Part shown: positions 60,577 to 63,469 of the stretch, piece after piece | How the letters are laid out: every line of letters starts with the position of its first letter | Numbering within the stretch: the first letter of the stretch is position 1 | DNA from: Methylopila sp. M107 | Lineage (GTDB): Bacteria; Pseudomonadota; Alphaproteobacteria; Rhizobiales; Methylopilaceae | Direction of reading: 5' to 3' | Length of the DNA: 64,000 nucleotides | NCBI RefSeq assembly: GCF_000384475.1 | Contig: NZ_ARWB01000001.1 | Span: 2,088,176-2,152,175 of the forward strand | Made by a program: the position numbers and the translations under genes | The notes under the pieces: generated by a model | The model's database searches: none | Told to the model about the DNA's origin: nothing | The model's input: only the letters and a program-made list of their open reading frames with translations

Positions 60577-61190
60577 CGGGCGAGCGCCCCGAGGTCGCGC
60601 AGGCTCGCTAGAACGGGCAGCAGCGGCAGTCCGAGGATCGTGAAGAAATCGCCCTCCACGGCTTCGAACAGCTGCGCGCCGACGCCCTCGAACTGGTAAC
60701 CGCCGACGCTTCCCAGCACGCCCTCCACGGCCGCGTCCAGATAGGCGTCGATGAATTGAGAGCCCAGCGGGCGCATCGTCAGCCGGGCCTCGGCGACGGA
60801 ACTCCAGAGAATTGCGCCGTCGCGCGCGAGCGCCGCGCCGGAGGCGAGGACATGAGGGCGGCCGGCGAGACGGACGAGCTGCGCGCGGCCGTCCTCCCGC
60901 GAGGCGGGCTTCGTGAAACGCTCTCCCTCCGCCGACAGGGTCTGGTCGCAGCCGAGCACGAGCCGGCCGGGCGACCTTTGCGAGACGTCGATCGCCTTGG
61001 CGGCCGCGAGCGCGACGGCGACGCGCGACGGCGCGGCTTCGTCGCCCGAAAGGGTCGCCTCGGTCGCGCGCTCGTCGATCGCGGCCGGAAGGACGTCGAG
61101 CGGGACGCCGGCGTCGGCCAGGATCTTCGCGCGGATCGAACTGTTCGAGGCGAGGACCAGCGGGGCGTCCTCCAGCCAGAGGCCGCTCAC
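60573..61190 (-). CDS. maf: Maf-like nucleotide pyrophosphatase
   Basis: 205 residues. 'LVLASNSSIRAKILADAGVPLDV' is the N-terminal substrate loop, 'VLGCDQTLSAEGERFTKP' the central motif with catalytic Asp, and 'SVGGYQFEGVGAQLFEAVEGDFFTILGLP' (partly shown) the C-terminal region. Maf proteins hydrolyse non-canonical or modified NTPs. Coupled to ppsR upstream and aroE downstream by four-base overlaps. Confidence 0.92.
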   Translation of the reverse strand: MSGLWLEDAPLVLASNSSIRAKILADAGVPLDVLPAAIDERATEATLSGDEAAPSRVAVALAAAKAIDVSQRSPGRLVLGCDQTLSAEGERFTKPASREDGRAQLVRLAGRPHVLASGAALARDGAILWSSVAEARLTMRPLGSQFIDAYLDAAVEGVLGSVGGYQFEGVGAQLFEAVEGDFFTILGLPLLPVLASLRDLGALAR

Positions 61191-62062
61191 GCCTCGGCCG
61201 CCGCGGCGGCGCGCTTGGCGCGGTGTTCGCCCAGCATCGAGATCACGGCGGCGGCGGTCTCCTCGATCGAGCGGCGGGTGACGTCGATGGTCGGCCAGCC
61301 GTTCCGGGCGCAGAGCCGGCGCGAGGAGCGGATCTCGTTCGCGACATGCTCGCGGTCGACATAGGAGCCGTCGGTCAGCCGGCCCGACAGCGCGCCCTCT
61401 TTCGCCGTCGGGTCGAGGCCGAGCAGACGGTTGTGGCGGATTTCCACGATCCGGTCCGGCGTCGCGATCAGGCCGACCACCAGCGGGCCCTGCAGCTCCT
61501 CGACGCCCGGAGGAAGGGGCACGTCCGGCACCAGCGGGATGTTCGCCGTCCGCACCCCGCGGTTCGCGAGATAGATCGAGGTCGGCGTCTTCGACGTGCG
61601 GCTGATGCCGAGCAGGAGGACGTCGGCGCCTTCGAGGTCGTGCGCGCCCTGCCCGTCGTCATGCGCCATCGTATAGTTGAGCGCGTCTATGCGCCGAAAA
61701 TAGCTCTCGTTGAGATCGTGCTGCGCGCCCGCCTGAGCGGCGGACTCCAGCCCAAGATGGGTCCGGAGCAGCTGGAACACCGGCGCCAGCACCGAAAGAC
61801 AGGGGCAGCCAAGTTCGCCGCAGCGGCGCTCGAGTTCCGAGATGAGGCCTTCGTCGACCAGCGTGTAGAGCACGATGCCGGGCTCCGACGCGATCTCGGC
61901 CAGCACGCGCTCGAGCTGGCGGGCCGAGCGCACCAGCGGATGGACATGCTCGACGCTCGACACGCTCTTGAACTGGGAGGCCACAGCGCGCGCCACGGCG
62001 ACCAGCGTCTCGCCGGTCGCGTCCGACACGAGATGGAAATGGAAGCTCGAACGCGGCGACAT
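61187..62062 (-). CDS. ppsR: PEP synthase/PPDK regulatory protein (bifunctional kinase-pyrophosphorylase)
   Basis: 291 residues. DUF299 family: an ADP-dependent kinase and Pi-dependent phosphorylase acting on pyruvate phosphate dikinase or PEP synthase. 'FHFHLVSDATGETLVAVARAV' near the start, P-loop 'VLLLGISRTSKTPTSIYLANRG', and 'NRLLGLDP' are characteristic. The start at 62062 (MSPRSSFHFHLV) is the family-like Met; using the Met at 62143 would push the gene into the candidate origin. First gene of the ppsR-maf-aroE-coaE operon. Confidence 0.92.
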   Translation of the reverse strand: MSPRSSFHFHLVSDATGETLVAVARAVASQFKSVSSVEHVHPLVRSARQLERVLAEIASEPGIVLYTLVDEGLISELERRCGELGCPCLSVLAPVFQLLRTHLGLESAAQAGAQHDLNESYFRRIDALNYTMAHDDGQGAHDLEGADVLLLGISRTSKTPTSIYLANRGVRTANIPLVPDVPLPPGVEELQGPLVVGLIATPDRIVEIRHNRLLGLDPTAKEGALSGRLTDGSYVDREHVANEIRSSRRLCARNGWPTIDVTRRSIEETAAAVISMLGEHRAKRAAAAAEA

Positions 62063-62398
62063 TTTCGAACGTTCCGGCTGGGGACGGCGAGGGGTCGAAC
62101 TGTCGACGACGCTGGGGACAGCTGTGGATGACGTCCGGGCCAAAGCCCGAAGCGCGCCGCACTGTCGCCGAGCCGGCGATTTTCATCAACAGGCCGATCG
62201 TCCGGGACGGGCGCAGCCGGCCTGCCGGAACAATGGTGAATGAATCGTTAAGACCCCAGCGGCGTCACAGGTCTTAACGATTGGTAAACGAGAGCGGGCG
62301 TGTGGACGGCTTGTGGACGGTCTGGAACGTCTGTAATCCGCACCCCTAGAAGAAGAAGCAGAAGAGTCTTTTCTAGATTCTTTGAAGGGAGGCCATCC
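62063..62398. other. Candidate chromosomal replication origin (oriC) upstream of hemE
   Basis: A 336-bp gene-free segment beside hemE, where the Caulobacter and Rickettsia origins lie. It contains a perfect 13-bp inverted repeat (62243-62255 / 62270-62282); each arm carries a near-consensus CtrA box (plus strand TTAA-N7-TAAA at 62274-62288; minus strand TTAA-N7-TTCA at 62237-62251). A DnaA-like box TGTGGATGA lies at 62123-62131 (8 of 9), with TGTGGACGG at 62301 and 62312. GANTC methylation sites are at 62242, 62364 and 62376. Origin activity is inferred; the segment must also hold the hemE promoter. Confidence 0.6.
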
Positions 62399-63469
62399 GT
62401 GCCCGAGACTGTGGCCGAACGCCTGAGGTCGAAGGCCGGCGCCGACGCGCCGAAGCTCATCCGCGTGCTCTCCGGCGAGACGATCTGGCCGCCTCCCATC
62501 TGGCTGATGCGGCAGGCGGGACGCTATCTCCCGGAGTATCGCGCGCTCAGAGCCAAAGCCGGCGGCTTCCTCGATCTCTGCTACACGCCGGAATTGGCGA
62601 CCGAGGTCACGCTGCAGCCGATCAGGCGCTTCGACCTCGACGCCGCCATTCTGTTCTCCGACATCCTCGTCGTGCCGCATGCGCTTGGCCAGGAGGTGCG
62701 CTTCGTCGAAGGCGAAGGCCCCCGGCTCGATCCGCTGCAGGACCGCGCGGCCTTCTCGCGGCTGAAGGACGCCATCGACCTCGATTTCCTCGGCCCGGTC
62801 TACGAGACCGTGTCCCGGGTCCGGGCGGAGCTTGCGAAGTCGAAGGCGCTGATCGGCTTTTGCGGCGCGCCCTATACGGTCGCGACCTACATGGTCGGCG
62901 GTCGCGGCGGCGAGGAGCAGGCGCCCGCGCGGCTGATGGCCTATCGCGACCCGGACGGGTTCCAGGATCTGATCGACCGGCTGGTCGACGCCTCCGCGGC
63001 GCACCTCGTCGCGCAGCTAAAGGCGGGCGCCGACGCGGTGCAAATCTTCGACAGCTGGAGCGGGGATCTTCCGCCGAAGGAGTTCGCGCGCTGGTCGACC
63101 GATCCGATCGCGCGGCTGTGCGGGAAGGTGCGGGACGAGGTCCCTGGAGCGAAGATCATCGCCTTTGCGCGCGGCGCCGGATCGAAGCTCGCGGATTTCG
63201 CGGGCGTGGTCCCGGCCGACGGTTTTGGGCTCGCGACGTCGGAAGATCTCTATGCGGCGCGCTCGGCGGTCTATTCGTGCCGGGCGCTGCAGGGGTCGGT
63301 CGATCCGATCGCGCTGGTCGCGGGCGGCGAGGCGCTCGACCGGGCCGTGGACGGCGTTCTGCAGGCGCTGGGGCGCAATCCGCTGATCCTCAACCTCGGC
63401 CATGGGGTGAGACAGGAAACGCCGCCAGAGCACGTCGCGCAGCTCGTGGCGCGGGTACGGGCGGAGTGA
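62399..63469 (+). CDS. hemE: Uroporphyrinogen decarboxylase
   Basis: 356 residues from GTG 62399, which has 'gggagg' six to seven bases upstream; the in-frame codon at 62300 is rejected because the residues before are basic junk. It converts uroporphyrinogen III to coproporphyrinogen III. The signature 'WLMRQAGRYLPEYRALR' is at about residues 35-50, the catalytic Asp in 'AILFSDILVVPHALG', with 'GFCGAPYTVATYMVGG' and 'QIFDSWSGDLPP' following. It is followed by hemJ, giving two heme genes in a row. Confidence 0.96.
   Translation: MPETVAERLRSKAGADAPKLIRVLSGETIWPPPIWLMRQAGRYLPEYRALRAKAGGFLDLCYTPELATEVTLQPIRRFDLDAAILFSDILVVPHALGQEVRFVEGEGPRLDPLQDRAAFSRLKDAIDLDFLGPVYETVSRVRAELAKSKALIGFCGAPYTVATYMVGGRGGEEQAPARLMAYRDPDGFQDLIDRLVDASAAHLVAQLKAGADAVQIFDSWSGDLPPKEFARWSTDPIARLCGKVRDEVPGAKIIAFARGAGSKLADFAGVVPADGFGLATSEDLYAARSAVYSCRALQGSVDPIALVAGGEALDRAVDGVLQALGRNPLILNLGHGVRQETPPEHVAQLVARVRAE

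Follow-up and report, generated by a model that had tools for sequence, protein, structure and literature searches.

CtrA is mainly a transcription factor, and in Caulobacter its roles in transcription and at the replication origin coexist, with GANTC sites, the targets of CcrM, being present in that origin (Cori) as well. Located in the gap between hemE and a COG1806 gene, Cori of Caulobacter crescentus is described, in the accessible parts of three sources, as carrying five CtrA sites, two G-boxes, five W-boxes and one IHF site (PMC1914354, PMC4285127, PMC4468827). There, CtrA is believed to keep DnaA away, and cells without the five CtrA sites showed a normal cycle that was mildly perturbed and a sensitivity to antibiotic pulses, as stated in the available text of PMC4468827. 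For Sinorhizobium meliloti, the available part of PMC4433202 describes an origin that has no CtrA motif and is not bound by CtrA, together with an over-replication of the genome upon CtrA depletion; CtrA of Brucella abortus was also reported not to bind the origin (as cited in an excerpt of PMC2877005). In Hyphomonas neptunium, a CtrA ChIP-seq peak adjoins the origin, going by the accessible sections of PMC7200025. Such CtrA sites were unseen in origins other than that of Caulobacter and possibly Rickettsia according to the available portion of a 2015 review, and no description of CtrA boxes at a Hyphomicrobiales origin was found in the open-access literature searched.

The window analysed here, the whole stretch of 64,000 nucleotides, covers bases 2,088,176-2,152,175 of the closed chromosome (4,453,493 bp). 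In it, the divergent genes ppsR (minus strand, with its ATG up to 62062) and hemE (with its GTG from 62399) enclose a gap of 336 bp, exactly as an earlier note on this DNA had delimited it (Table 1). The ppsR product also matched the narrower PpsR model NF049928, with a score under its cut-off. Revealing a GC content of 60.1% vs 68.9% for the window, the gap falls at the 1.3rd percentile among the window's 336-bp stretches, and the 48 bp on its hemE side (62343-62390) have a GC content of 41.7%, below 99.7% of equal window stretches. Two named records, L062 and L063 (an uncultured Methylopila MAG and Chelatococcus sambhunathii S14), have before hemE 330 bp identical to those of the congeners G010 and G009; Methylopila and Chelatococcus are both placed in the Hyphomicrobiales.

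Table 1. Features of the ppsR-hemE gap and its flanking genes, in window positions
Feature	Position	Strand	Remarks
ppsR (PEP synthase/PPDK regulator, COG1806), left flank	61187..62062	-	NCBIfam NF003742, E=2e-95, above cut-off
Candidate oriC (ppsR-hemE gap)	62063..62398 (336 bp)	.	Position, skew, KOPS, parS, conservation
Best DnaA box, TCATCCACA, 1 mismatch to TTATCCACA	62123..62131	-	Column identity 0.93 in 13 genus sequences
DnaA-box-like TCATCAACA, 2 mismatches	62183..62191	+	Inside conserved block GATTTTCATCAACA
Left CtrA box, TTAA-N7-TTCA, 1 mismatch	62237..62251	-	Mean column identity: core 0.93, N7 0.71
GANTC (CcrM-type)	62242..62246	.	
Inverted repeat, left arm	62243..62255	+	13 bp; palindrome not conserved
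Inverted repeat, right arm	62270..62282	-	13/13 pairs, spacer 14
Right CtrA box, TTAA-N7-TAAA, 1 mismatch	62274..62288	+	Mean column identity: core 0.96, N7 0.77
Weak DnaA-like site, TGTGGACGG, 3 mismatches	62301..62309	+	Block conserved in genus
TTGTGGA-type site, 3 mismatches	62312..62320	+	11 bp on from the 62301 site
Box-like TAATCCGCA, 2 mismatches	62334..62342	+	TAATCC/TATCCAC-type motif
A-rich triplet tract, TAG AAG AAG AAG CAG AAG	62347..62364	+	Candidate unwinding/single-strand DnaA element
GANTC in AT-rich hemE leader	62364..62368	.	Order-wide enrichment
GANTC in AT-rich hemE leader	62376..62380	.	
hemE, uroporphyrinogen decarboxylase, right flank	62399..63469	+	TIGR01464, E=2.8e-109, above cut-off

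The gap is very likely the chromosomal origin, and the earlier note's proposal of a candidate oriC is upheld by gene order, GC skew, polarity of FtsK motifs and parS sites. The order of COG1806/ppsR and hemE is that of the Caulobacter and Rickettsia origins. The gap lies at 2.1502 Mb, and the cumulative GC skew, followed over 570 kb without missing bases (1.94-2.51 Mb) at a resolution of about 100 kb, is lowest at 2.12-2.13 Mb and forms a nearly flat plateau up to 2.22 Mb; the skew minimum, which that note had named as a check, is near the gap and not far away. In sampled 10-kb bins from part of the chromosome, the mean GC skew was -0.0058 to the left of the gap (27 bins) vs +0.0075 to its right (92 bins; p=1.7e-4). 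Two perfect parS sites are located at 2.2118 and 2.2142 Mb, 61-64 kb from the gap, with no further site at up to two mismatches elsewhere in the genome. As in a Cori-type origin, the gap holds one good and several weak DnaA boxes and is richer in AT than the genome.

The sequence GGGCAGGG, which we take to be a proxy for the FtsK motif (KOPS), occurred in the sampled bins twice on the plus and 24 times on the minus strand to the left of the gap, and 48 and 10 times, respectively, to its right. Its genome totals are 234 plus and 124 minus, while the pattern read backwards gave 116 and 79. Among the matches listed, at least 100 on the plus strand lie before 1.180 Mb, together with 14 on the minus strand, and 86 minus matches lie in 1.274-1.934 Mb, the polarity thus converging at 1.18-1.27 Mb. 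Apart from the 100 minus matches listed up to 1.934 Mb and the 23 in 1.94-2.51 Mb, a single one of the 124 falls elsewhere; 1.94-2.150 Mb displayed 16 minus vs 2 plus, and 2.150-2.51 Mb displayed 7 minus and 9 plus. The gap sits at the beginning of this polarity switch, which the KOPS polarity by itself would permit anywhere in 2.15-2.44 Mb. As a separate observation, the pattern of matches, among those listed, recurs at 703118-710519 and 745625-753026 with an offset of about 42.5 kb, which suggests a long duplication.

Three DnaA-like boxes with a TGTGGA core and three GANTC sites had been noticed in the gap before. All of them are present, the former at 62123, 62301 and 62312 (plus), yet only the site at 62123 is a good DnaA box. 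Two matches to the W-box TCCCCA were found on the minus strand of the gap, and none to the IHF consensus WATCAANNNNTTR or WATCAN5WTR at up to one mismatch within it. The A-rich tract resembles the basal unwinding system, as described in the available parts of PMC8287927 and PMC6669920, in having a box-like TAATCCGCA, a short GC-rich spacer, triplets with a central A and AT-rich DNA, and differs in that, with respect to the box, its triplets are on the non-canonical strand; only a variant of reversed polarity, with six triplets and a spacer of 4, is present. According to the accessible text of PMC6669920, reversing the boxes beside the trios renders the unwinding region of Bacillus subtilis inactive. 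A canonical DnaA-trio or basal unwinding system was rejected for the AAG tract, which we retain only as a reversed variant, its strand polarity being wrong and the published rule, in our own coding (box with up to two mismatches, spacer 0-16, at least three NAN on the opposite strand), giving no match on either strand. The triplet run is not universal: of the 82 order sequences, 29 have one that exceeds base shuffles (p<=0.05). DnaA-box-like TATCCAC motifs were also seen in the arms of a REP-like family of hairpins (CGGGTATCCACGACTT...AAGTCGTGGATACCCG, variable loop) at 1890-1946 of the window and at other sampled places; a strict pattern finds 10 copies of this family in 1.19 Mb.

Between the DnaA-like sites, the two near-consensus CtrA boxes of the earlier note were recovered with one mismatch each. 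For its comparison of 8-mers, the note had used the inner TTAACGAT; in relatives, the canonical 8-mer TTAACCAT lies on the minus strand in the outer half of that right box (e.g., TTAACCATCC in G001 and G011), a half that has it in several species and is altered in the window. A background of 1.19 Mb, which comprises 27% of the chromosome and is not matched to the gap in composition, yielded 46 boxes at one mismatch or none (3.9 per 100 kb, so that about 0.013 would be expected per 336 bp) and three pairs 16-60 bp apart, the origin pair being one of them. A reversed-letter control, AATT-N7-AATT, gave 61 boxes and two pairs in the same 1.19 Mb, so neither boxes nor pairs of this kind exceed chance expectation across the genome. 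As rarity fails, the case for the two boxes rests on their conservation. Another CtrA-like pair, 37 bp apart and thus with the spacing of the origin pair, lies at 1,969,079-1,969,130 of the chromosome and possibly marks a CtrA-regulated promoter. The genome encodes one CtrA, 81% identical to the Caulobacter query (next best 38%), which passes the cut-off of NF045991. Of the features expected of a CtrA-controlled origin, boxes inside it and an encoded CtrA protein were found.

For the genus, the gaps of 13 species were aligned, including the window and, as 13th sequence, G004, which is 88% complete and was used only here and in the genus tally of two boxes. Compared with the cores of both boxes (Table 1), mean column identity was lower in the loop (0.64) and the rest of the gap (0.62), and the N7 of the boxes, arm ends, loop, leader and remainder all ranged between 0.60 and 0.77. 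Blocks above 0.9 were the first DnaA box, GATTTTCATCAACA, the eight core columns of each CtrA box, the TGTGGACGGCTTGTGGAC pair, GAACG..TGTAATCCGC and CCCTAG..AAGAGTC. Of the 315 placements of a 4+7+4 pattern along the gap, 13 equalled or exceeded the score of the right box and 35 that of the left one; they belong either to the two boxes or to further stretches that are conserved, one of them a GTCGAC stretch before the first DnaA box. Thus, the boxes are among the conserved parts of the gap, and not its most conserved ones. Two boxes at up to one mismatch were present in 12 of the 13 species, the exception being G003, which has lost the left box and holds the right one only. A perfect TTAA-N7-TTAA occupies the place of the right box in nine of the 13, and the window, G009 and G010 have TTAA-N7-TAAA there. 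With start distances of 35, 36, 37 or 46 bp, a fixed helical phase between the boxes can be ruled out. In the place of the left box, G006 (L083) displayed half-sites every 11 bp (TTAA, TAAA, TTAA, TTAA) and G004 (L068) a comparable triple in the same 11-bp register.

Across the order, we compared 82 hemE upstream sequences, comprising 12 of the genus, five of sister genera and 65 from the rest of the order; the latter were the 25 best-scoring loci and 40 picked mainly for family spread, from 147 matching order genomes. In some rows, e.g., L095, L114, L115 and L121, the layout is wholly absent, and these are perhaps not origins; all rows were kept. The best-scoring 40 of 96 matching genomes represented other alphaproteobacterial orders (two same-genus duplicates skipped), and dnaK upstream sequences from the best-scoring 30 of 150 genomes served as control. 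From -400 to +30 of hemE, a perfect TTAA-N7-TTAA was found in 23 of the 70 other order sequences and, as the safer figure since related sequences are not independent, in 13 of 32 families, the window's own included; 20 of the 65 sequences beyond that family carry one. Other spacings (0-20) gave only 0-4 of the 70, and with one mismatch allowed there were 65 matches at a spacing of 7 vs 5-24 at the others. The dnaK upstreams revealed neither a perfect N7 box (0/30) nor a spike in spacing, and in 13 matched genomes the perfect box occurred seven times before hemE and never before dnaK. For the other orders, it was found in 4/40 (0-1 at other spacings), with no spike when one mismatch was allowed (7 matches vs 0-9 elsewhere). 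Two thirds of the order sequences have no perfect box, and its position varies, many being located at -120 to -350 and others at the hemE leader (-52 to +17). The sister genera g2 and g3 have no boxes at the place used in the genus, with three of their five sequences showing a perfect match near the hemE start. In the hemE gap of L108 and L112 (family f25), we noticed an inverted CtrA-like pair facing each other 21 bp apart, GTTTACC-GC-GGTAAAC.

Further motifs accompany the boxes. The earlier note had noticed neither the conserved elements towards hemE (TTGTGGA on one strand, TAATCC, the A-rich triplets and GANTC) nor the recurrence of CtrA boxes at this place in the order. TTGTG[GA]A on the plus strand, at -170 to -20, occurs in 39/82 order sequences (three reversed; genus 12/12, sister genera 3/5, beyond the family 24/65), compared with 0/40 in other orders and 1/30 before dnaK. 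ATCAACA was found in 37/82 hemE gaps of the order (17/17 in the family, 20/65 beyond), 1/40 of other orders and 0/30 dnaK upstreams; in the window (62178-62191) it lies in what is possibly a variant DnaA box, TCATCAACA, and the motif favours one strand and is seldom seen in other orders. The TAATCC/TATCCAC motif is present in 41/82 order sequences (32/65 beyond the family), 7/40 of other orders and 0/30 dnaK upstreams. GANTC averages 1.63 per order sequence at -70 to +30 of hemE, vs 0.07 for dnaK and 0.80 for other orders; against base shuffles of the order sequences, 134 sites vs 28 were counted in this interval and 152 vs 96 at -400 to -70. This clustering beside the AT-rich tract suggests that CcrM may methylate the opening region or the hemE start.

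With the sequence, its conservation, the polarity and the presence of CtrA established, we infer binding, blocking, a site of unwinding and its timing as follows. The gap is probably the oriC of a Methylopila-like member of the Hyphomicrobiales, with CtrA~P blocking DnaA at two boxes, and our confidence in this reading as a whole is somewhat better than even. DnaA would load from the boxes on either side and open the AT-rich stretch before hemE (62343-62390), and phosphorylated CtrA would occupy the two boxes lying between the DnaA sites, hindering the assembly of DnaA between its left and right sites. With DnaA kept off by CtrA~P, replication would be held back in the CtrA-high (G1-like) cell type. 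With 12 bp from the end of the right box to the first paired TGTGGA and 58 bp to the A-rich tract, a Caulobacter-like hindrance of DnaA appears to be the simplest reading, and because both boxes carry a mismatch here, their affinity for CtrA may be low. Judged from the sequence, a functional CtrA pair at the origin is likely.

Its main rival, unlikely though to be taken seriously, holds that the boxes are real but transcriptional, so that CtrA regulates the divergent hemE and/or ppsR promoters and does not act on initiation directly. Both divergent genes have the gap as their upstream region, and in several members of the order a box lies at the hemE leader, as given above. In the window, however, some 118 nt lie between the box centre and the start codon of hemE, whereas CtrA-activated promoters mostly have their box at -35, according to the accessible text of PMC11264516, and the origin features share the same gap. 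A search of the region for sigma-70 consensus promoters gave none, which is a weak point against this rival since alphaproteobacterial promoters differ.

Considerably less probable is that the origin is right, but that the one-mismatch boxes are decaying relics to which CtrA does not bind. It is consistent with the imperfect right box of the window, G009 and G010 at a place where nine of 13 species have a perfect one, and with the loss of the left box in G003. Nevertheless, the window and the two sequences closest to it hold both boxes at a spacing of 37 bp with core letters unchanged, and a survey of alphaproteobacterial origins, in its available part, took boxes with one mismatch (A positions, looser TTWW consensus) as putative sites (PMC1914354), although the mismatch of the left box in the window falls outside the A-position rule as given there.

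An origin elsewhere, e.g., near dnaA or opposite the terminus, is very improbable. The dnaA gene is located at 4.05 Mb, 1.9 Mb from the gap, a position opposite to where the KOPS converge would fall at around 3.45 Mb, and an origin at the gap would make the replichores implied by the KOPS polarity very unequal (about 0.9 and 3.5 Mb). This inequality is odd and counts against an origin here, yet it is the same polarity data that give it. In 13 sampled 20-kb pieces from 3.22-4.26 Mb, GGGCAGGG occurred 18 times on the plus and never on the minus strand, so no polarity switch exists at 3.45 or 4.05 Mb; both places are rejected on the KOPS polarity, and the parS sites and the skew minimum at 2.12-2.22 Mb speak against them as well.

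The perfect 13-bp inverted repeat with its 14-bp spacer is present as described in the earlier note, and its DNA fold (z = -4.8) beats each of 200 shuffles. However, the 1.19 Mb background has 68 distinct sites with perfect 13-bp inverted repeats (loop 3-40), or 443 hits when overlapping ones are counted, a C/G run among them, so a repeat of this kind is nothing unusual. Its arms form 13/13 pairs in the window and 12 in G009; G010 and G004 have 10 each, and the remaining nine species 4-9. The check on relatives that had been proposed for both arms and boxes was thus passed by the boxes (12/13) and not by the arms (4-12/13 pairs). A symmetric, hairpin-capable repeat as a meaningful arrangement finds no support: the palindrome is complete in the window species only, the spacing of the boxes varies, G003 has no left box, and G004 and G006 carry the extra in-register half-sites. 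As the cores are conserved and the arm pairing is not, selection seems to act on the boxes and not on the palindrome, which may be a by-product of both boxes sharing one inner half in this species by chance. That the repeat itself matters, as a cruciform, terminator or operator hairpin, is hardly credible despite its perfect arms and fold, given the poor pairing in the other 12 species, the commonness of such repeats, the lack of a terminator-like call on it and the divergence of the flanking genes; as a conserved functional unit, the hairpin is refuted.

The recurrence of predicted CtrA boxes at hemE-linked gaps of the order is a more interesting outcome than the symmetry of a hairpin. Tentatively, and with rather less than even confidence, we suggest that direct CtrA control of the origin may be a common trait of the Hyphomicrobiales that is lost or lacking in S. 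meliloti and Brucella, within an order-specific oriC layout of ATCAACA, CtrA boxes, TTGTGGA on one strand, TAATCC, A-rich triplets of reversed polarity and GANTC at the opening region. If CtrA boxes are present at the origin in many families of the order, the Caulobacter-style direct switch would have been gained or kept more often than thought, and free-living members would offer a way to test how replication is restrained by CtrA. The layout of motifs may also aid the finding of oriC in Hyphomicrobiales genomes.

The gap agrees with Cori in its flanking genes, in having TTAA-N7-TTAA-type CtrA boxes interspersed with weak DnaA boxes, and in its two W-box matches and GANTC; it differs in having two CtrA boxes in place of five, no IHF site at up to one mismatch, and the DnaA box TCATCCACA where Cori has TGATCCACA. 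The hemE-linked origins of Rickettsia and Wolbachia share the hemE border, predicted CtrA and DnaA sites and an AT content above that of the genome, but belong to intracellular lineages rich in AT, for which between zero and seven CtrA sites are predicted, along with IHF sites, as given in the accessible part of PMC1914354. The likeness to H. neptunium consists of CtrA at the origin, shown there by ChIP-seq (in the portion of the source available) and predicted here from sequence alone, and that species is a member of another order. S. meliloti and B. abortus belong to the same order as the present species and have a CtrA that is required for growth; according to the available texts, CtrA is not bound at their origins, whereas here the predicted boxes are conserved throughout most of the genus.
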